The notes under the pieces: model-generated
Database searches by the model: none
The model's input: the letters and a program-made list of their open reading frames with translations, nothing else
What the model was told of the DNA's origin: nothing
IMG/VR virus record: IMGVR_UViG_3300046167_000166
Location: 1-29,848 of that record
Origin: a virus
Strand: one strand, 5' to 3'
DNA length: 29,848 nt
Position numbers and translations under genes: made by a program
Shown here: piece by piece, positions 15,444 to 26,251 of the stretch
How the letters are laid out: each line of letters starts with the position of its first letter
Numbering within the stretch: position 1 is the stretch's first letter

Positions 15444-15827
15444 TTATTTAAAGCTGTCGAATGTTTTTTTCATTGACAGCTTTTCATTTATAAACTCTTC
15501 CGTTGATACATATGTTGTAACGGTAGTCAGCTCATCACCCCGGCGGAAAACTACAGCGCCCAAGTTGATGGCCACAAACGCAAACACGTCTGACGCACCT
15601 ACGTTTCTTTTCGGTGTGTGGAATTTGTATTTTTTGCTGTTACTGCACATCTTACTGGCGGTCTTAACTTGCAAAGTGAGAGTGCGTGTATCCGTCTGTA
15701 TATACGCGTCGTGGTCTTTGATCTGGCATAGTGTACAGATGTAGCCAGCGAGCGACAAACGAGCAAGGGCTAGATGCTCCCCCGCCCGGCCTACCGCCGC
15801 GCTGGCCTTTTGATCTTGTGCAGGCAC
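15444..15827 (-). CDS. Holliday-junction/PD-(D/E)XK-type nuclease
   Basis: 127 aa, starting MPAQDQKASAAVGRAGEHLA. Residues VGRAGEHLALARLSLAGYI (E17), KDHDAYIQTD (D40) and LTLQVKTASK (Q53, K55) give the E-D-x-Q/E-x-K core of archaeal-Hjc-like or group I intron-type endonucleases. The usual E of E-x-K is Q here, as in some active members. KYKFHTPKRNVGASDVFAFV and GAVVFRRGDEL are typical substrate-domain strands. Last gene of the late operon, 5 bases after the endolysin stop. Together with the RuvC-like protein it may resolve replication junctions or damage host DNA. Confidence 0.7.
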   Translation of the reverse strand: MPAQDQKASAAVGRAGEHLALARLSLAGYICTLCQIKDHDAYIQTDTRTLTLQVKTASKMCSNSKKYKFHTPKRNVGASDVFAFVAINLGAVVFRRGDELTTVTTYVSTEEFINEKLSMKKTFDSFK

Positions 15828-15831
15828 TTGC

Positions 15832-16458
15832 TCAGGTCAGCAGCCAAGTGTGGATCTTGCGGGTCTGGTTAACCCTATCCTCAAGCCCGTGATATCCACC
15901 ATTAACCCTGCGAGTGATCCGCTTGATAGTGTCATCACTTACACCGTCATCAGCAATTGCAAACAGGCCGTTCTTCTGGAAGAACCACAGCGCTGTCTCA
16001 AAAGCATACTCGTCAGCGAGCTTTGACGGATACTCAAGCACTTCCGGCAAGTCCATGTCAGCCGCAAATGCCTTGACGTTTGATTTGCCTGTGAGTTGCA
16101 GGAAGCCTTTGCCCGCAAACGCAAAGCCGTCACCACTGGCCTCATCTCCATTTCCCATTCGGCTGGAGTAAACCTTGTTTGCGAGACCTTGCGGGTTCTT
16201 GGCATACGGCTCGGCGCTCTCTACCGTCGGGAAACGTGACGGCCAGACAGCTTGGATGCGCTCGGGTGTTGAGTAATACAAACCCTCAGTCGTGCGCTTA
16301 AAACCGCCGCTCTCGTGGTGCGACTGACCCAGCAGATGCGCGCCACGATTGGGCGAAAGCTCGTAATGCTTTGCGATGGCTCGCGCCGTGTTCGGGCCGA
16401 AACTTCCGTCAGCCGTTACTCCGATTTTCATCTGGAGCAGTTTCATTGCTTCACTCAT
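15832..16458 (-). CDS. Endolysin: GH19-like lysozyme
   Basis: 208 aa. N-terminal KLLQMKIGVTADGSFGPNTA is a short peptidoglycan-binding-like module. GAHLLGQSHHESGGFKRTTE gives catalytic E49 and E58 (followed by GLYYST), and FAFAGKGFLQLTGKSNVKAF is the GH19 core. ADEYAFETALWFFQKNGLF and RITRRVNGGYHGLEDRVNQT follow in the order seen in phage GH19 enzymes. It cuts the glycan of peptidoglycan at lysis. No signal or SAR segment is present, so release depends on the holin. The start overlaps the stop of the 49-aa gene (ATGA). Confidence 0.9.
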   Translation of the reverse strand: MSEAMKLLQMKIGVTADGSFGPNTARAIAKHYELSPNRGAHLLGQSHHESGGFKRTTEGLYYSTPERIQAVWPSRFPTVESAEPYAKNPQGLANKVYSSRMGNGDEASGDGFAFAGKGFLQLTGKSNVKAFAADMDLPEVLEYPSKLADEYAFETALWFFQKNGLFAIADDGVSDDTIKRITRRVNGGYHGLEDRVNQTRKIHTWLLT

Positions 16459-16608: not shown

Positions 16609-16863
16609 TTAACTCCTCTTCGATTTGGTGCCGGAGCATTTCCAGCGCTTGCGTGACAGGTTGAGCGGGCTGTTTGGATCTTTAGCCGCCTTGGGAAACT
16701 TTTTCTTCTGCGCCGCAGAGCGCGCGCAATACGCGTCACCTTTTGACGTGCCGGGCTTGACGCGAGGGCCACCGCCCTTCGCCTTACCGGCTTGGCCATA
16801 GCTTACCTTCTTGCCGCTGGCCGTGACTTTAACTCGGGCTTTGCCCTTCGATGGTGTAGCCAT
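16609..16863 (-). CDS. DUF6321-like basic protein
   Basis: 84 aa starting MATPSKGKARVKVTASGKKV. Contains VSYGQAGKAKGGGPRVKPGT, SKGDAYCARSAAQKKKFPKA and SPLNLSRKRWKCSG: the DUF6321 pattern, including two cysteines (C49, C81 by count). Very basic with Gly-rich loops. Role unknown; in other phages it lies with capsid or lysis genes. Here it is coupled by TAATG to the holin stop at 16863 and followed by the 49-aa basic protein. Confidence 0.8.
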   Translation of the reverse strand: MATPSKGKARVKVTASGKKVSYGQAGKAKGGGPRVKPGTSKGDAYCARSAAQKKKFPKAAKDPNSPLNLSRKRWKCSGTKSKRS

Positions 16864-17258
16864 TATTTCGTTAACCCCTGTTTCTTTTCGTAGCTTCTCA
16901 AGCCTCCAAGCCCAAGCATGCCCATCATAACAGTCATTAGGCTACCCATGTCAAATGAAGGCAGCTCTGGTATTTCCACACCCGCAGCGGTCACGCCAAA
17001 CACAATAAACGGCTGCAACACGAAATGATAGGCAAACGCAACGCCGCAAACCCACCCGATGAATGGGCGCCAGCCGCCCTTGAACACTGAGCCAGATGCC
17101 GCCTCGGCCTTGTTGATTTCGAGCTGGCCCTTTGCCAGCTCCTGAGCGTGACGCTCAGACATGGTTGCGATCTCGTGGGCGAGTGCCGCCTTCTGGTCCT
17201 TATCCTCAATGAACTTATCTAAAATGCCCGTCACGGGGCCAATGAGAGCCTGCAACAT
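16863..17258 (-). CDS. Three-TM holin (gene-transfer-release type)
   Basis: 131 aa starting MLQALIGPVTGILDKFIEDK. Residues 20-55 (AALAHEIATMSERHAQELA) form a helical cytoplasmic part, then KGGWRPFIGWVCGVAFAYHF, VLQPFIVFGVTAAG and MGSLMTVMMGMLGLGGLRSY give three hydrophobic segments. The GxWRPFIGW motif and length match holin family PF11351. It makes the membrane lesions that release the endolysin. The stop is shared with the start of the 84-aa gene. It lies at the end of the membrane block, 405 bases upstream of the endolysin. Confidence 0.88.
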   Translation of the reverse strand: MLQALIGPVTGILDKFIEDKDQKAALAHEIATMSERHAQELAKGQLEINKAEAASGSVFKGGWRPFIGWVCGVAFAYHFVLQPFIVFGVTAAGVEIPELPSFDMGSLMTVMMGMLGLGGLRSYEKKQGLTK

Positions 17259-17260
17259 GG

Positions 17261-17563
17261 TTAATCCTTTTTCGCTTGATAAGCGTTAGCCCCGAAGAAC
17301 GCGCCCAAGATTAAGCTGGTCGCCGGGAAGTAGATCGTGGCCATCGACCCGAGGATGTCAGAGGCGGCATCCAATCCGAGATAACTGGAGATAATCACAA
17401 AGAACGGATAGCCAAGCATGCCAGCCAGAACCCACCAGATCATTTTGCGAGACTGGTCGCGTTGCGCGTTGTCGTCTTCGATACGCATCCGGCGGTCTTC
17501 AAGCATCATCGCCTTCTCTTCTGGGTCGATCACGCCGTTGCCGTTTAAATCATAGTCGCTCAT
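17261..17563 (-). CDS. Two-TM protein with an EF-hand-like loop
   Basis: 100 aa starting MSDYDLNGNGVIDPEEKAMM. D-x-N-x-N-G-x-I-D-x-x-E (residues 5-16) is a classical 12-residue calcium loop, and a charged helix of about 25 residues follows. Two hydrophobic segments then appear: KMIWWVLAGMLGYPFFVIIS and ILGSMATIYFPATSLILGAF. The predicted topology has the Ca-loop on the cytoplasmic side or, in the other orientation, the periplasmic side. Similar EF-hand plus two-TM phage proteins occur in marine phages (memory). It lies 3 bases before the holin. It may be a second holin, an antiholin or an ion-sensing partner; evidence is limited to context. Confidence 0.7.
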   Translation of the reverse strand: MSDYDLNGNGVIDPEEKAMMLEDRRMRIEDDNAQRDQSRKMIWWVLAGMLGYPFFVIISSYLGLDAASDILGSMATIYFPATSLILGAFFGANAYQAKKD

Positions 17564-17572
17564 GGCAACCTC

Positions 17573-17992
17573 CTATCTAATGGGATTTTTAACTAGGTCA
17601 TCAAAAGCCTTCCACAGGTCTTCGATTTCCATGTCATATGTTTCGAGCTTGTCACCAATGCCATCAGTGACGGTTGCGCCCTTCTCAACGGTTGAACGCA
17701 GATCCATGAGCGTGCGTTGCTGCTCAAGAATGTTGGTCATCTGCGTGCTGATTTGCGTGAGCTGAGTGTTGAGGCCAGCCACGTTGTTTTGCGTCAGCGT
17801 CTGCTCAATGGCTTGTATTCGCGAAGTCGCATCCAGTACCTCAAGCACAGACGCCTCTAGTCCGTTAAAGCGAGAAATCGCATCATAGCCATAGTAAATG
17901 CCGCCGCTAAGGCTAGATAACAGAGGCACAGCAGCAGCAATATACCAGCCTCGAAGCGTGAACCCGCCAGCTTTGATTTCAACGTCTTCCAT
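17573..17992 (-). CDS. Single-TM coiled-coil protein
   Basis: 139 aa starting MEDVEIKAGGFTLRGWYIAA. TM segment at about residues 14-35 (GWYIAAAVPLLSSLSGGIYY), then a long coiled coil, FNGLEASVLEVLDATSRIQA through LEQQRTLMDLRSTVEKGATV, and an acidic end, MEIEDLWKAFDDLVKNP. This is the layout of inner-membrane-anchored periplasmic rods, so an i-spanin is possible. It starts immediately after the 258-aa exported protein stop (TAAATG). It could alternatively be a structural or superinfection factor. Confidence 0.65.
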   Translation of the reverse strand: MEDVEIKAGGFTLRGWYIAAAVPLLSSLSGGIYYGYDAISRFNGLEASVLEVLDATSRIQAIEQTLTQNNVAGLNTQLTQISTQMTNILEQQRTLMDLRSTVEKGATVTDGIGDKLETYDMEIEDLWKAFDDLVKNPIR

Positions 17993-18769
17993 TTACGGCT
18001 GGCCATATAGATTTTGAGCATGGTCGTACAACTCGTCTGCGGTTTTATTGTTTGAAGTTGTGTATTGGGTCCAGCCTGTACCTTCACCCTGGTCGCCCCA
18101 AGTAATGATGTACTCATTAGTGTCGAATGCAAAATCAACAGATGTGTACTCGCCAATTACAATGTTATTGTCAGCCACATATGTATCAATACTGTTAGTA
18201 AGAGCTGTGTTTTGACTTGCTGCAAAGAACGCGCCAGAAATCTGAGCCATACTGCTGACCGCACTTAACGCCTGATTATAGTTATCAACATGATCTTGGG
18301 TAATTGTGGTGTTTGCTAGAACTTCTTGAAGCGCCAAGCCTTCTGGTCTTGTGTCAGCCGTAGCCGCCATCTCAGAGACCACAGACACAGTCATAAGTGC
18401 AGCGCTTGCCTCTGCCAACTCGTCAACGCTCATTCCAAGCTCAAGCATTGCAGAGGCGTACTCTGCATCGAACAACTCAGTCGCAGTCTCAGCTTCCGAA
18501 AAGTCCATGGCCAGCACAAGGTCAACCGACGCTTGATAATTCGCCAGCATCTCATTGGTTACGATAGCTTCATCCAGACTGTTGTTCGCAATGATCTGGC
18601 CTGCGCCAGCCATATCAGTCGCTGCGTAAGCCATCAGAGCCGCCAGCTCCACTTGCTGCTGGATCACTGTCGCTGCGTCCTGAAGGTCGCCCACTTCCGT
18701 TGTTTGTTGAGCGTGTACGCCGGAAACGCTCAGAGAGAGTAGGGCGATTGTTGTCAGCCGTTTGAACAT
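17993..18769 (-). CDS. Exported Ala-rich protein (Sec signal peptide)
   Basis: 258 aa. Residues 1-21 are a textbook signal peptide: basic MFKR, hydrophobic TTIALLSLSV, cleavage after VHA (likely before QQTTEVGD). The mature part is acidic and helical to about residue 200, with repeated helices (VELAALMAYAATDMAGAGQI, ASAMLELGMSVDELAEAS). A C-terminal beta-like region, EYIITWGDQGEGTGWTQYTT, follows. No cysteines are obvious in the mature protein and no catalytic motif is recognised. It overlaps the 252-aa gene upstream by 155 bases in another frame. Periplasmic or outer-membrane-facing, exact role unknown. Confidence 0.7.
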   Translation of the reverse strand: MFKRLTTIALLSLSVSGVHAQQTTEVGDLQDAATVIQQQVELAALMAYAATDMAGAGQIIANNSLDEAIVTNEMLANYQASVDLVLAMDFSEAETATELFDAEYASAMLELGMSVDELAEASAALMTVSVVSEMAATADTRPEGLALQEVLANTTITQDHVDNYNQALSAVSSMAQISGAFFAASQNTALTNSIDTYVADNNIVIGEYTSVDFAFDTNEYIITWGDQGEGTGWTQYTTSNNKTADELYDHAQNLYGQP

Positions 18770-19373
18770 TTGGCAGTTCCTTTAAATCCATCCTGAGAAA
18801 CGCATCCCAGAAGCTCTGATCTTGTGCGTATCCTACCACATAAATGTTAGGATTTAAACGCATGGCCTCATACGCGTCTCGGCCAGTTAAAATTCGCGCT
18901 TCAGTTACACTATAGATAGGGCAGGGCGTAGATGACATGGCCATCGCCTTGAATACATGTGGCGCGGCGCACATCACAGACAGGCCGCTAATCTGCAAGC
19001 CAAGGCCGTGCGGCTGCGGCTGTCCCATGAGGCGAGCATCTTTGCGGCGGTTACATTCTGGGTCTTGCTCCATGTTTCCTTGAGCGATGCCAAACAAGCT
19101 GACTTGTATGCCGCTGGTTTTGGGCATGAGGCAGCTATCTTGACCGCCAGCCCCCATCACAGTGGGCGCAGCGGCCGTTGGTGGCGGCTGTGAGCCGGGA
19201 GAGCTACCGGGACCGTTGTAGGTGTTCTGATATGTCTCGTTGGTGTTGTTGCTTTCAACGGAACTGTTGTTGTTTCCGGTGTTGCTGTTGAAGTCGCCTT
19301 CAACACTACCGTCTTGGGCATAGCATAGAGACCCGAGCAAGATCAGGGATATGGCAGCGCATCTGGTTCGCAT
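18615..19373 (-). CDS. Exported Cys-containing protein (signal peptide)
   Basis: 252 aa starting MRTRCAAISLILLGSLCYAQ, a signal peptide cleaved near YAQ. A Ser/Asn/Thr/Pro-rich linker (GDFNSNTGNNNSSVESNNTN) precedes a globular region with cysteines in DSCLMPKTSG, PECNRR, SVMCAAPHVF and TPCPIYSVTE. MSSTPCPIYSVTEARILTGR and PNIYVVGYAQDQSFWDAF look conserved. The final ~52 codons overlap the next exported gene and are low-complexity Ser/Gly/Asp. The start lies inside the lipoprotein gene (31-base overlap). Function unknown. Disulphide bonds in the periplasm are probable (inference). Confidence 0.65.
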   Translation of the reverse strand: MRTRCAAISLILLGSLCYAQDGSVEGDFNSNTGNNNSSVESNNTNETYQNTYNGPGSSPGSQPPPTAAAPTVMGAGGQDSCLMPKTSGIQVSLFGIAQGNMEQDPECNRRKDARLMGQPQPHGLGLQISGLSVMCAAPHVFKAMAMSSTPCPIYSVTEARILTGRDAYEAMRLNPNIYVVGYAQDQSFWDAFLRMDLKELPNVQTADNNRPTLSERFRRTRSTNNGSGRPSGRSDSDPAASGAGGSDGLRSD

Positions 19374-19579
19374 TCCACCTCCAGAACATCTCGGACGTTA
19401 GCATCATCACACATAACCCGAAGGCCAGCGTCATGAAAGCCCATCGCAGCCAATGTTTCTGCATTTTTTCTAGCCTCACAATGCTCGTCCCCCATGCAAA
19501 CCGACGGCAGAACAAGAGGGCTTGGTGCTTTGATCTCTGCGCAGCCGAGCAACAGAAGTGCTGGCAATAAGCGCATCAT
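19343..19579 (-). CDS. Lipoprotein, possible outer-membrane spanin
   Basis: 78 aa. N-terminal MMRLLPALLLLGCAEIKAPS carries a lipobox LLGC, cysteine at residue 13, with Ala at +2 of the mature protein, so outer-membrane sorting is expected. The rest, LPSVCMGDEHCEARKNAETL and GFHDAGLRVMCDDANVRDV, has four more cysteines. The start overlaps the stop of the TM coiled-coil gene by 4 bases (ATGA). A TM coiled-coil gene followed directly by a lipoprotein gene resembles i-spanin/o-spanin pairs. The Cys content is high for an o-spanin, so this is unsure. Confidence 0.65.
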   Translation of the reverse strand: MMRLLPALLLLGCAEIKAPSPLVLPSVCMGDEHCEARKNAETLAAMGFHDAGLRVMCDDANVRDVLEVECEPDALPYP

Positions 19580-19800
19580 TTGCGCTCAATCAACCTGTCA
19601 ATCTTTGCATCAAGGCCGTCGAGGCGCGTCATCACGCGGTTCATCTGATCGGAGCTGTCTGCCTTTGTGATGTACTCTTCGCGGGTGCGGTTAATTAGTA
19701 TTTGCAGGCGAGTAATTTCACCTGTCCAAGATTTAACCCAGAAGCCAATGGCCGTGACGACGATTGACAGTAATGCGCTCCACATCGCGTCCATTTCCAT
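19576..19800 (-). CDS. TM coiled-coil protein, possible inner-membrane spanin
   Basis: 74 aa. MEMDAMWSALLSIVVTAIGF forms one N-terminal TM segment (~6-24), followed by a heptad coil, GEITRLQILINRTREEYITK to RLDGLDAKIDRLIERK. With an N-in topology the coil lies in the periplasm, like Rz-type i-spanins, and the overlapping lipoprotein would be the partner. Marine phages often carry this type of protein after the capsid cluster (memory). It starts 2 bases after the 102-aa gene ends. Confidence 0.6.
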   Translation of the reverse strand: MEMDAMWSALLSIVVTAIGFWVKSWTGEITRLQILINRTREEYITKADSSDQMNRVMTRLDGLDAKIDRLIERK

Positions 19801-20378: not shown

Positions 20379-21335
20379 TTAGGAAGTTGTGTTGTCGAAA
20401 ACGCCGCCGTTGGCAGCTTCCGATTTTGCGCAGAGCGTGAGTTCTGTCACAACTTGGCGAGTAGTGTTGTCGCCAGTTTTGGCCAGAGCCACGTTCTTTG
20501 TGCCGCGCAAGGAAGCGATTTCCCACATATCATCCTGCATGATGAATACATCGCGCGAACGGTTCTCACGGCTTGGCATGAACTCAATGGTTCCCCATGG
20601 AGTTACATATACTGCCAAGGATTTGACAACACGCTCATCGCCAGCTTGTACTGCTGAACGCTGGTTGTTGTTACCTGTGAAGCCGAGAGCTTTGTTCATT
20701 TGGAAGGCAGACAAGTAAACTGTGTCTGGCTTACCGCCCTCTTCCCAGATGGACTGCATAACGCCGTCAAAACGTGCCTGTGAGAACGCAATCAAAGTTG
20801 TGGTCTCATCTGTACGAGCGTCTGTACCGTCGCCAGTTGGGTCAGCACCTTCGTTGGCACCGTGATCGGTGTTGGTGGTGATCCATGCTGGAGCGCCTGC
20901 AAGCTCACGAGCTGTTGTGGAGTTACCCGCAGCGCGTGCATTGTTGTCGAAAAGAGCCTTTTCGATGTCCAATTTTTGCTCTTTGGCAATCTTAAGTGTT
21001 TGATATGCAACTTCTTTTGCACGGCCAGCTTTATCCAGACCTTCATCTGTGTCAGGAACGACAACAGCGTTTTTGAAGATTTGTGTGTAGTTGCCGAGAC
21101 GTGTTGTAGCAGAGCGAGCTTCGCCTGCTGTTGCATCGCCTTCAATGTGAGCATTGGCAGCGGAAGCGCGAAGCGAGTCTGTTTGCCACTCTACCAAAGT
21201 ATTGCGAGCTGCCTTTTTGGCAGACTTGCTATAAAATGGAGTTTCTTCTGGAGAAATGTTGTGAATAACATTGCTCAAGTCCTCACGGATGCCGACGGCA
21301 TCATATGAGTCGAATGTGTTGGTTGGCTGTGCCAT
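20379..21335 (-). CDS. Major capsid protein (SU10/DUF5309 type)
   Basis: 318 aa starting MAQPTNTFDSYDAVGIREDL. The string SNVIHNISPEETPFYSKSAK, then VEWQTDSLRASAANAHIEGD, TTRLGNYTQIFKNAVVVPDT and FDNNARAAGNSTTARELAGA, is the start of the SU10 major head protein family (HK97-fold). The C-terminal half, with VYLSAFQMNKALGFTGNNNQ and VYVTPWGTIEFMPSRENRSR, also fits. Length is normal. It is preceded by the scaffold gene, as expected, and followed by a hairpin. It forms the icosahedral shell. Confidence 0.93.
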   Translation of the reverse strand: MAQPTNTFDSYDAVGIREDLSNVIHNISPEETPFYSKSAKKAARNTLVEWQTDSLRASAANAHIEGDATAGEARSATTRLGNYTQIFKNAVVVPDTDEGLDKAGRAKEVAYQTLKIAKEQKLDIEKALFDNNARAAGNSTTARELAGAPAWITTNTDHGANEGADPTGDGTDARTDETTTLIAFSQARFDGVMQSIWEEGGKPDTVYLSAFQMNKALGFTGNNNQRSAVQAGDERVVKSLAVYVTPWGTIEFMPSRENRSRDVFIMQDDMWEIASLRGTKNVALAKTGDNTTRQVVTELTLCAKSEAANGGVFDNTTS

Positions 21336-22599: not shown

Positions 22600-24680
22600 T
22601 GCGGTGTACCCTGTGACATCGCGCCAATCATAGCGCGGGCCTTATCTTGCTCAGCCTGAATGCCCGCAACATCAACGGCTGTGCCGTACTCGCCATAAAT
22701 CTTTGCAGCGTTGACCAACAAGTCTTGCGCCATCTGATCCCGCTTGAGATCATCGCTGGCTGCTGCCTTCTGCATGTCAAGCTGCAACTTGGCCATGTCA
22801 GTTTGGGCCTTGGTCTGGGCCTTCATTTGCTCTGCCTGCAAGAACGCAGCGTTTGGATCAGACGCCTGACCTTGCTGCGCTTGAGCTTGCTGCTGCATCT
22901 GCAACATCTGCATTTCAATCTCAGGTGTAATTGGTGCAAAGTAACGGTCGGCATTTCGTATGCCCGACACAGCCAACTGATCTGCCAGCGTGTTGCGAAT
23001 GTTAGTCAAGCTAACCAGTCCGTTCATCGGGCCATAGTTTTGGTAAACCATCGTTTGCATTTGCAGCGCTTGGCTCAAAGCCATTGCCTTTTCTTCCTCG
23101 CGGCCAGTGCCGAGGCCAACATTGATGCTAACATCCATAGCCTGATCCCAAACGCGTGGGTCAACAGGTACAAATATACCGTTCATCCGCATCATTTGCT
23201 CTTCGTCTACGTTCTTGCTCATCAAGCGCAGCATGATCCCAAACAAGTCACGCATGCCGTCGGCAAGGTTGCGCACCATAACTTCGACCTGACCCGCTGC
23301 GGCCTGCACAGTAGCCTGCACAGCGGCCTTTGTGGTTGACTGCATTGCATCAGGGTCTAGGCCCATTGAGGCTCTGGAGACGCCTGTCTTGCTCTCTACG
23401 AGGCCATCTAGGTATGTAAGCGCTCCAAGCGTTTGGCCTGCGGTAAATGGTACGGTCAACTCTTGAACTGCGCCGGGCTGGCGCATCCGTACAATAGCGC
23501 CAATCTCGTTATTCAGAATGTCATCCACGTTCACAGCGCCGTCAACGATGCCTAAGCGCGGGTTGTTGGTCATCGCTACGTTATCAAGGATAGAGCGCAA
23601 AATGGATGTTGCCGCGTCTTGATCGTCGATAACGATCTCGGCCAGTGAGCGGCCGTAGAATGTATGTGGCTCTGGGTCAACTTCGAACTTGGCAAACGGA
23701 AGCTCATCGCATGGCTCTACATCCAGCAAGTCGTAAGATGTGCCGCCACACGTTAATTTGTGCAGGACAGGTATCCCGGTACCTTCAACGTCAATGCGCA
23801 TATACGCTTCCGTCACGGTCACATTCTTCATTGTCGGGTCTTGCTCTTCCTCGTCGGAAGTGTCCATTTCATAGCCGCGACGCTCATACGTCTCAGCTTC
23901 TGTCATTTCAGACCCGCTTTCCAATCCATCCAAGCTGAAAACAACTTCTGGGTCGTAGCCCATTGCGATCAGATCACCAGCACGCATGTCTGTGCGGTGG
24001 GCCACAACGTAAGCATCATCAAAGCTGCGGGCGTCACGGTTGATAAAGAACTCTTCCGGCGGAACGCTCTCAATGCAGAGCTTGCCCTTTTCTTGCTGGT
24101 AGCTGAGCTTGACGCTATGGGTTGGAAGTTCCACTTCCATGCCCATTTCGTCCATGGACACAGACATTTCAGTGCTATGCTCAAGCACATTCACGTTATC
24201 GTCTGCCACCAGATATGTATATTCATCGTCAGACAAATCTGTGAACGTGTGGATCTCTGCCTCTGGATACGTCATCCAGTACGCTTTCACGATGCCTTGC
24301 TTTTTAACCAAAGCGTCTTGAAATGCGTCGTTGATAACTCGGTATCCGTTCAGACGAGTGAACTCATGGTGCATAAACTCAGTGGCTTGCTCAGCCATTG
24401 CCACGTCTTCTGGGCCACGCGGCACGAACTCAACTGGCTTGGCTGTGCTGAGGAATATGCGCATCAAGCTCGGCTTCACAGAGCGTACGGTATCGCGTAC
24501 CTTTGTGGCTACAACTTTGCTGCGACCATCCTCGTAGCCAAGATCAACCTCGCCGTCGTAGTATCGTTGAGCCTTGATGCGGTCGTCGCTGATCTCGCTC
24601 TCAATAAAGTCAACGGCATTGGAAATAGCGTCTTGGACTATGCCCTCAATTTCTCTGCGTGATTTTGGTTTAAGTTCCAT
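22596..24680 (-). CDS. Portal protein
   Basis: 694 aa starting MELKPKSRREIEGIVQDAIS. Typical large podovirus/SU10-type portal segments: YYDGEVDLGYEDGRSKVVAT and KVRDTVRSVKPSLMRIFLST, then QGIVKAYWMTYPE, VPPEEFFINRDARSFDDAYV, GRSLAEIVIDDQDAATSILR and GVSRASMGLDPDAMQSTTKA. The ~C-terminal 110 residues are Gln/Ala-rich coiled coil (IEMQMLQMQQQAQAQQGQAS), probably the barrel. It forms the dodecameric vertex that TerL docks on. It is co-transcribed with the upstream injection proteins and the downstream 80-aa gene. Confidence 0.93.
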   Translation of the reverse strand: MELKPKSRREIEGIVQDAISNAVDFIESEISDDRIKAQRYYDGEVDLGYEDGRSKVVATKVRDTVRSVKPSLMRIFLSTAKPVEFVPRGPEDVAMAEQATEFMHHEFTRLNGYRVINDAFQDALVKKQGIVKAYWMTYPEAEIHTFTDLSDDEYTYLVADDNVNVLEHSTEMSVSMDEMGMEVELPTHSVKLSYQQEKGKLCIESVPPEEFFINRDARSFDDAYVVAHRTDMRAGDLIAMGYDPEVVFSLDGLESGSEMTEAETYERRGYEMDTSDEEEQDPTMKNVTVTEAYMRIDVEGTGIPVLHKLTCGGTSYDLLDVEPCDELPFAKFEVDPEPHTFYGRSLAEIVIDDQDAATSILRSILDNVAMTNNPRLGIVDGAVNVDDILNNEIGAIVRMRQPGAVQELTVPFTAGQTLGALTYLDGLVESKTGVSRASMGLDPDAMQSTTKAAVQATVQAAAGQVEVMVRNLADGMRDLFGIMLRLMSKNVDEEQMMRMNGIFVPVDPRVWDQAMDVSINVGLGTGREEEKAMALSQALQMQTMVYQNYGPMNGLVSLTNIRNTLADQLAVSGIRNADRYFAPITPEIEMQMLQMQQQAQAQQGQASDPNAAFLQAEQMKAQTKAQTDMAKLQLDMQKAAASDDLKRDQMAQDLLVNAAKIYGEYGTAVDVAGIQAEQDKARAMIGAMSQGTPQ

Positions 24681-26251
24681 TATTGCTGCTCCTGAGCCTG
24701 CAAGCCGCTTAATCTAGCAACTATGTCTTGGACTAATTCTTTGGTTACAACTTTTGAAGGCTCCGCAACGCCACCAGAACGCACCAAGTCTTCAAGAGCT
24801 TTGCGAGAGGTTTTTATTTTTGCGTTGTACCCCATTTTCGCAAAAGAAGCGGCTGTCATACCCATAATCTCATAAGCGAAATTGCCGGGGGTAGATAAAA
24901 GAATAATACTCATCCCAGAGGTTAAACCGTTAGATGTAGGAGCCAACTTGCCAATCGTCGCTAATACCTTGCTGCCTATTGTGCCGTCCGCGACCCTTTT
25001 CAGTGCGGCCAGCTCATCTGGCGACCAAAATGCAGCGGCTTTATCATTGTTGAGTATTTTGGTGGCAGCGGCCTGAAACGCCTCACCAGTTTTAGGTATT
25101 AAGTTTCCCTTTTTTGCATTTTGAGTTGCCTGCTTGAAGTATTTATCCAGCATTCGGGCTTTGGCGTATTTAGAATTTGCTGCCCTTGCAGCCTGCATTA
25201 ACGCCGCATCCTTGCTGCCCTCGGCAAGAACGTCATCCATTTTCTTTAACATTGACAAGACCTCTGGCGCGTCCGGCGCTGTCTTGTATATTTTGCCCAA
25301 AGCCTTCTGAAGCTCGTTAAACTTTGACAAATTCATTGCCCCAGATTTTTCAACCTCGTCAACAAGAGATAACGCTTTCTCAACAGACGGCTTTGCTGAT
25401 AGTATAATGTCGTCCATGTTTAGGACGCTTCTCATGTCCTGCACTAAGTATGCTGTCTGCGTACCAGTTAATCCAGTTCCTTCTAACTTCAAAAGATCGT
25501 ACGCGGAGTTCTTTTCTGCCTTCAGAGTCGAAATTGTAGGAGAAGTCACGTTTTTCTTCTGAAACGCAGAAAGGGTTTTATTTGCCGCGTATGGTGAAAC
25601 TAGCGCGCCAGCAATCCTTGCATAAGGCTCAAGGTCCGTACCCTCAGTCGCCTGCCCAGCAGCCTCGCTGCCAGCGCCAGCAGCCACGGATGCTTGCATT
25701 AGTTTTTTACCGCCGCCCAGTATCCCTCCCGGTCCGACAAACTCACCTATCGTACCCGCAAACTGCGCAGGCGTGCTTTCGCCTCTGTAGGCAAGAGCCT
25801 CATCAACTCCCAGCCCTTCAGTGGCTGCGGTTACAACTTCTCCGCTGAAGGTATCAAATAATCCCCTAGGCCCCTCTTCCCCGTAGCGGGCTTTAGATGT
25901 ATCGACGCCAAGAGCGTAATCAGCTAAGTCACCCAACCGATCCGCAGCATAGCCCGGAAGTCTAGCCGCCGCTTCAATGCCTTCTGGTATGCTGGTAATC
26001 CCGCGCGCCATGCCAGCAAGTCCAGCGCCAACAATGTCTTCAAACGCGCCGCTTTCAATTTGCTGCAAGTTTGGGTAGCGCGTCACGCCCTGCTCATCAA
26101 CGTATGGCTCGGTTGGGGTTGGCTCTGGCAAGTTAGGGGCAGCGCCACCGCCCGCAAGGCTTCTTTTGAGAGCTGCGTATGCACCCTCAGCGCTTTTTCC
26201 AGTAACTTCATACGTTTTACCGTTTGGGGCAGTTATTTCAAAAGTCGGCAC
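24680..26251 (-). CDS. Internal/ejection protein, 523 aa
   Basis: N-terminus MPTFEITAPNGKTYEVTGKS is a small beta motif (F-x-I-x-x-P-x-G-K-x-Y-x-V) common to phage internal proteins that are ejected or hold lysozyme domains. About residues 75-215 are Gly/Ala-rich with membrane-like helices (ARGITSIPEGIEAAARL; ASVAAGAGSEAAGQATEGTD). The central part is helical (KALSLVDEVEKSGAMNLSKF). No lysozyme catalytic motif is visible. Its stop overlaps the portal start by 1 base. Most likely one of the ejected virion proteins that form the trans-envelope conduit (inference from composition and context). Confidence 0.7.
   Translation of the reverse strand: MPTFEITAPNGKTYEVTGKSAEGAYAALKRSLAGGGAAPNLPEPTPTEPYVDEQGVTRYPNLQQIESGAFEDIVGAGLAGMARGITSIPEGIEAAARLPGYAADRLGDLADYALGVDTSKARYGEEGPRGLFDTFSGEVVTAATEGLGVDEALAYRGESTPAQFAGTIGEFVGPGGILGGGKKLMQASVAAGAGSEAAGQATEGTDLEPYARIAGALVSPYAANKTLSAFQKKNVTSPTISTLKAEKNSAYDLLKLEGTGLTGTQTAYLVQDMRSVLNMDDIILSAKPSVEKALSLVDEVEKSGAMNLSKFNELQKALGKIYKTAPDAPEVLSMLKKMDDVLAEGSKDAALMQAARAANSKYAKARMLDKYFKQATQNAKKGNLIPKTGEAFQAAATKILNNDKAAAFWSPDELAALKRVADGTIGSKVLATIGKLAPTSNGLTSGMSIILLSTPGNFAYEIMGMTAASFAKMGYNAKIKTSRKALEDLVRSGGVAEPSKVVTKELVQDIVARLSGLQAQEQQ

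Follow-up and report, generated by a model that had tools for sequence, protein, structure and literature searches.

Gene organization of the locus

The window analyzed in the present study, that is, the whole stretch of 29.8 kb from an IMG/VR virus record, is a genome fragment of a marine bacterial virus. The following features were located in and next to the region 16863-19800.

19576..19800, minus strand: TMcc74, 74 aa; one N-terminal transmembrane (TM) segment and a short coiled coil; phrog_7885, phrog_462
19343..19579, minus strand: lipo78, 78 aa; predicted lipoprotein with lipobox Cys13 and a bare four-cysteine (4-Cys) domain
18615..19373, minus strand: cys252, 252 aa; signal peptide, Asn/Ser-rich stretch, 4-Cys domain and low-complexity tail; kin of phrog_20531
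17993..18769, minus strand: acid258, 258 aa; signal peptide and acidic helical bundle with a small C-terminal beta part
18615..18769, minus strand: overprinted region, cys252 tail over acid258 signal peptide, 152 coding nt
17573..17992, minus strand: TMcc139, 139 aa; N-terminal TM segment, predicted periplasmic coiled coil and conserved C-terminal NP motif
17261..17563, minus strand: EF100, 100 aa; EF-hand loop and two TM segments; member of the lysis cassette
16863..17258, minus strand: holin131, 131 aa; GTA_holin_3TM family
16609..16863, minus strand: 84-aa basic protein; small conserved marine-phage protein; phrog_10346, weak
15832..16458, minus strand: endolysin; phrog_181, E 6.5e-48

A sequence-only reading had described seven consecutive exported or membrane proteins at 16863-19800, and all seven open reading frames (ORFs) are present on the minus strand with the lengths and envelope signals that it gave. 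The pN/pS values against relatives were 0.01-0.53, mostly below 0.3, for all seven ORFs; since purifying selection thus acts on each, they are genuine genes. Export and membrane signals were called by rule-based heuristics from the sequence only. In a crude scan of the 33 window ORFs, those with a signal peptide or TM segment all lay within the block, except one at 15444-15827 that is probably spurious; thus, the clustering is unlikely to be due to chance.

The portal protein of the window is closest to that of Octadecabacter Antarctic DB virus 2 (DBV2; 49% identity). In DBV2, the capsid gene is followed by a homologue (by inspection) of a 116-aa protein, a one-TM protein and a lysozyme, and no lipo78, cys252, acid258 or TMcc genes were found between the capsid and lysis genes, which argues that the block either was inserted or replaced the lysis region. 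The capsid gene of the window, at 20379-21335, is separate from a 523-aa protein upstream of the portal gene (24680-26251) that matches a PHROG labelled major head protein. The small basic protein at 16609-16863 has a CARSA...KKFPKAAKDPNS motif, which is shared with gp43 of HTVC023P (L062 2560-2877).

An ordinary lysis cassette within the block

The block consists of two units that are separable in other phages. For example, CRP-810 has TMcc74, lipo78, cys252, acid258 and TMcc139 at one place (L001), and EF100, the holin and a GH108 endolysin at another. The ORFs and signals of the proposed seven-gene block therefore stand, but not its unity, since the two parts separate elsewhere.

EF100, the three-TM holin and the endolysin form an ordinary lysis cassette. 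holin131 is a member of GTA_holin_3TM (PF11351; E 2e-25, 90 bits, gathering cut-off 24.8), and no difference from the family was noted. EF100 combines two TM segments with a canonical 12-residue EF loop, DLNGNGVIDPEE, which is kept in 31 of 31 distinct homologues; with the Pfam EF-hand model, the window protein scores below the cut-off and some of its relatives match. The charges around its TM segments point to an N-in/C-in orientation, which suggests that the EF loop is probably cytoplasmic. In CRP-345 and CRP-9, the gene adjoins that for an endolysin or a spanin, and in Melnitz and HTVC008M it lies beside baseplate or tape-measure genes. EF100 is best read as a holin-type protein. A calcium-responsive system had been suggested for the whole block; this attribute is limited to EF100 with its canonical loop, and EF100 belongs to the separate holin/endolysin cassette.

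Conservation of the exported module

Upstream of the lysis cassette, lipo78, cys252, acid258 and TMcc139 constitute a separate conserved exported module. IMG/VR scans gave well over a hundred distinct relatives, and more exist than were kept. Among 100 non-redundant loci in which cys252 was present with enough sequence, acid258 was next to cys252 in 93, TMcc139 then followed in 91, and lipo78 was upstream in 76, fractions that are conditional on most loci having been found via cys252 or acid258. Only some of the phages have TMcc74 ahead of the module. Conservation as a unit in related phages is thus a property of four of the seven genes and not of the rest of the block.

Within 3.5 kb downstream of the module, the named genes seen most often were those for endolysins, the GTA holin and terminase. 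The module occurs near unrelated endolysins (GH19-like, GH108, amidase and M15), and in other phages it lies beside capsid or terminase genes. The proposal that the envelope-active genes go beyond holin and endolysin is therefore borne out, with a strongly conserved gene order and frequent proximity to lysis or packaging genes.

The seven loci without acid258 were from six pelagiphages and ctXG6705. The pelagiphages keep a triad in which acid258 is replaced by an unrelated, equally acidic exported protein with a lectin-like N-terminal part (by inspection; no Pfam hit), a Glu-rich stalk and a helical end. Its net charge, about -13 per 100 aa in the three proteins measured (P0002, P0004 and P0006), is similar to that of the acid258 family (median about -12 per 100 aa). 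Directly after this partner, or past a few small genes, lies the gene for a small protein that has a TM segment, a coiled coil and NPL or a related sequence at its end. Profiles support its homology to TMcc139 in HTVC115P and Mosig; in HTVC033P, 023P, 202P and Baldr, the homology is based on position, size and motif only. The pelagiphages with the triad have no lipoprotein, and hence no outer-membrane anchor.

Features of the module proteins

In an alignment of lipo78 (lipobox LLLGC) with 34 homologues, the Cys of the lipobox is invariant, as are three of the four Cys in the domain, and the fourth is conserved in at least 90%. lipo78 and its homologues have no Asp at +2, a sequence signal of outer-membrane-type lipoproteins. 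lipo78 is a paralogue of the 4-Cys domain of cys252 (residues about 78-180; hhalign probability 95, E 3.7e-8), and is predicted to be this bare domain on a lipid anchor. The signal peptides of cys252 and acid258 end CYA/Q and VHA/Q, and signal peptides and lipobox are conserved across distant phages.

No Pfam or PDB match was found for cys252, and its AF2 model is confident solely around the 4-Cys domain. The acid258 model (pLDDT 86) is a helical bundle with a small C-terminal beta part. Neither model hit a solved-structure fold at E <= 0.001, and the acid258 fold significantly matched only unnamed or uncharacterised viral proteins; an Arfaptin/BAR-like fold was rejected because its hits were below significance. 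No function could be assigned to the module proteins by searches of Pfam, PHROGs, PDB sequences and folds. In the 152-nt overlap of cys252 and acid258, the synonymous rate is depressed, which indicates dual coding.

In some cys252 homologues (L218, L222, L224 and L227), the 4-Cys domain is preceded by Asn/Thr/Ser-rich repeats that span as many as about 400 residues and look like amyloid or fibre sequences. In alphaproteobacterial chromosomal proteins, the domain is joined to long Asn/Gly/Gln-rich or collagen-like repeats (L229, L230, L231 and L234-L240), and one 4-Cys protein has an OmpA domain (peptidoglycan anchor). The gene lies near thiC in several of these genomes. Of 96 genomes from one alphaproteobacterial order, 8 have the domain, compared with 1 of 289 genomes sampled across the class. 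A cellular origin of the domain was rejected, as it is rare outside this order and has no named function there.

TMcc74 and TMcc139 each have an N-terminal hydrophobic segment and a coiled coil. The segment of TMcc139 is weakly hydrophobic yet conserved, and Lys and Arg are more numerous in its N-flank than in its C-flank in 27 of 41 proteins and never fewer. TMcc139 is thereby predicted to be N-in with a periplasmic coiled coil, an i-spanin-like topology. By the positive-inside rule, all 19 TMcc74 homologues are C-in, which places the coiled coil in the cytoplasm.

Public annotations of the module genes look wrong or incomplete at several loci (L001 6779-7534, 7602-8165 and 8165-8587; L002 3292-3873; L003 1654-2400). 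Doubtful labels are lysozyme for TMcc139 homologues and OmpA family for cys252; the acid258 start is annotated too late in CRP-810, and the gene is missing from the ct7L0027 annotation. The lysozyme label in CRP-810 and CRP-207 was rejected, since PHROGs show no lysozyme family for these proteins.

Distribution of the module and spanins

In a survey, approximately 13% of the phage genomes lacked a recognisable spanin, which raises the question of how such phages open the outer membrane (PMC6139136). We searched complete or nearly complete genomes and the window for spanins with a rule-based lipobox/TM scan, in which credible hits were judged by eye. A spanin-like gene other than lipo78 was found in 0 of 10 module-plus phages, whereas 5 of 9 relatives without the module had one. 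A one-sided Fisher test of this split gives p about 0.01; the test ignores kinship and was framed after the first cases had been seen, and the spanin-bearing relatives represent about three independent cases. In the window, beyond whose ends a spanin gene could lie, and in CRP-810, CRP-207 and ct7L0027, the scan gave no credible lipoprotein except lipo78, and it gave no genuine-looking lipoprotein in the module-plus HTVC033P, 115P, 023P, 202P, Baldr and ctXG6705.

Among the module-minus phages, DBV2, the nearest portal relative, has a candidate i-/o-spanin pair, consisting of gp32, a TM and helix protein weakly like Rz (phrog_1026, E 0.014), and an overlapping lipoprotein ORF. A u-spanin-type lipoprotein is encoded by CRP-345, CRP-9 and CRP-1; it bears the annotation spanin2 in CRP-345 and is matched by phrog_1804 in CRP-345 and CRP-9. 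CRP-738 has an Rz1-like lipoprotein. PHROG support for these calls is fair in CRP-345 and CRP-9 and weak in DBV2 and CRP-738. The lipobox/TM scan also found no spanin-like genes in module-minus CRP-235, CRP-603, CRP-212 and HMO-2011; thus, such a result is common anyway. Together, the distribution of module and spanins is suggestive of complementarity. No cys domain was found in the cyanophages listed as spanin-less (P-SSM2, S-PM2, Syn9 and P-SSP7).

Possible role of the module

Lysis was among the roles proposed in the sequence-only reading, and gene order, topology and spanin distribution make a role in outer-membrane lysis the best supported one. We put at about 0.4 the probability that the module is an envelope-spanning complex that substitutes for a canonical spanin in the outer-membrane step of lysis. 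We infer that its proteins form a physical complex and that this disrupts the outer membrane. TMcc139 would be anchored in the inner membrane and extend its coiled coil into the periplasm, and lipo78 would present its 4-Cys domain lipid-anchored in the outer membrane. cys252, which has the same domain, and its regular exported partner acid258, or the acidic protein of pelagiphages, could bridge the periplasm or load it. Once the peptidoglycan is gone through the action of holin and endolysin, the bridge would collapse or destabilise the outer membrane. The spanin-like geometry, with an outer-membrane-type lipoprotein and an N-in coiled-coil inner-membrane protein, was counted for this role; the pelagiphage triad counts against it, since the outer-membrane anchor is missing.

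The main rival is surface remodelling or superinfection exclusion, in which cys252 and its acidic partner would coat or bridge the outer membrane and block receptors or glue cells to one another, with lipo78 and TMcc139 as anchors. We consider this possible but rather doubtful. The cys proteins are exported and repeat-rich; the repeats of the cys252 homologues and the chromosomal kin, whose repeats are Asn/Gly-rich or collagen-like and one of which has an OmpA anchor, fit a surface role equally well. The lectin-like part seen by inspection in the pelagiphage partner is in line with it, as is the presence of other exported surface systems (curli) in pelagiphages (PMC7029224, PMC9599517). However, the module often sits with late lysis or packaging genes, its core includes an inner-membrane coiled-coil protein, and no receptor-like or glycan-modifying domain was recognised. 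The downstream lysis and packaging genes, the spanin-like topology and the split of spanin-like genes together favour outer-membrane lysis over a surface role.

Periplasmic 4-Cys proteins might instead act as T4 RI or Spackle do, regulating holin or endolysin to control lysis timing or inhibit lysozyme. Exported Cys-rich proteins of small size, encoded close to holin and endolysin, would suit such control, but the module occurs near unrelated endolysins and elsewhere beside structural or packaging genes, and four co-conserved parts exceed the needs of a regulator; thus, this explanation is unlikely. An option beyond the sequence-only reading is that TMcc139 and lipo78 may themselves be the i-/o-spanin pair of the window phage. 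That they are a separated two-component spanin with cys252 and acid258 as passengers of another function is quite unlikely: the topologies fit, but the gene spacing exceeds the approximately 1 kb of the most extreme survey case (PMC6139136), pelagiphages without lipo78 keep the cys protein and acidic partner, and the domain that makes up lipo78 is that of cys252. It is very improbable that the products are virion or DNA-ejection proteins whose N-termini resemble signal peptides, although the genes lie in the late region and the module moves among structural contexts, because the export signals are kept across distant phages and the cys252 (partly low-confidence) and acid258 models had no match to solved virion or tail folds, which had been named beforehand as evidence against the envelope proposal.

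If the outer-membrane lysis role is true, the conserved module in cultured marine phages makes spanin-less opening of the outer membrane directly testable, and provides a context for unannotated pelagiphage and roseophage genes.

Comparison with known systems

The curli/T8SS genes (CsgGF) of pelagimyophages resemble the module in that exported envelope proteins are encoded by marine phages. A curli partnership was rejected, as CsgG was absent from the ten module-plus isolate or complete genomes searched and the CsgG-bearing HTVC008M and Melnitz have neither cys domain nor module. Each of the three related myophages HTVC008M, Melnitz and Mosig has either CsgG or the cys module but not both, which with n=3 could be due to chance. 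phrog_20531 contains the 4-Cys domain of cys252 kin, with no function or system described.

A unimolecular spanin (T1 gp11 type; spanin2 of CRP-345) is a single lipoprotein with a C-terminal TM segment, which adjoins the endolysin in related module-minus roseophages; no protein with lipobox and C-terminal TM segment was found in the window, and nothing similar in the module-plus phages scanned. The two-component spanins (lambda Rz/Rz1, T4 PseT.3/PseT.2) share with the module an outer-membrane lipoprotein and an N-in inner-membrane coiled-coil protein near holin and endolysin. In contrast to them, the module has two additional soluble exported proteins between these genes, its outer-membrane part is a 4-Cys domain whereas Rz1 is Pro-rich, and the pelagiphage version has no lipoprotein.

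Of the defining features of spanins (PMC6139136), the module has by prediction the two topological ones, an outer-membrane lipoprotein (absent in pelagiphages) and a type II inner-membrane protein with a periplasmic coiled coil. Spanin i- and o-genes are embedded, overlapping or in close linkage, with about 1 kb as the extreme in that survey, but TMcc139 and lipo78 are separated by 1.35 kb with two genes between, and no sequence match to known spanins was found in PHROGs or Pfam. Thus, we do not file the module as a spanin, although it may work like one. Tentatively, the four exported parts, of which the acidic one is exchangeable and two share a 4-Cys domain, could form a complex of a third class of outer-membrane-breaking machine, which would take the place of spanins in widespread marine phages infecting SAR11 and Roseobacter.
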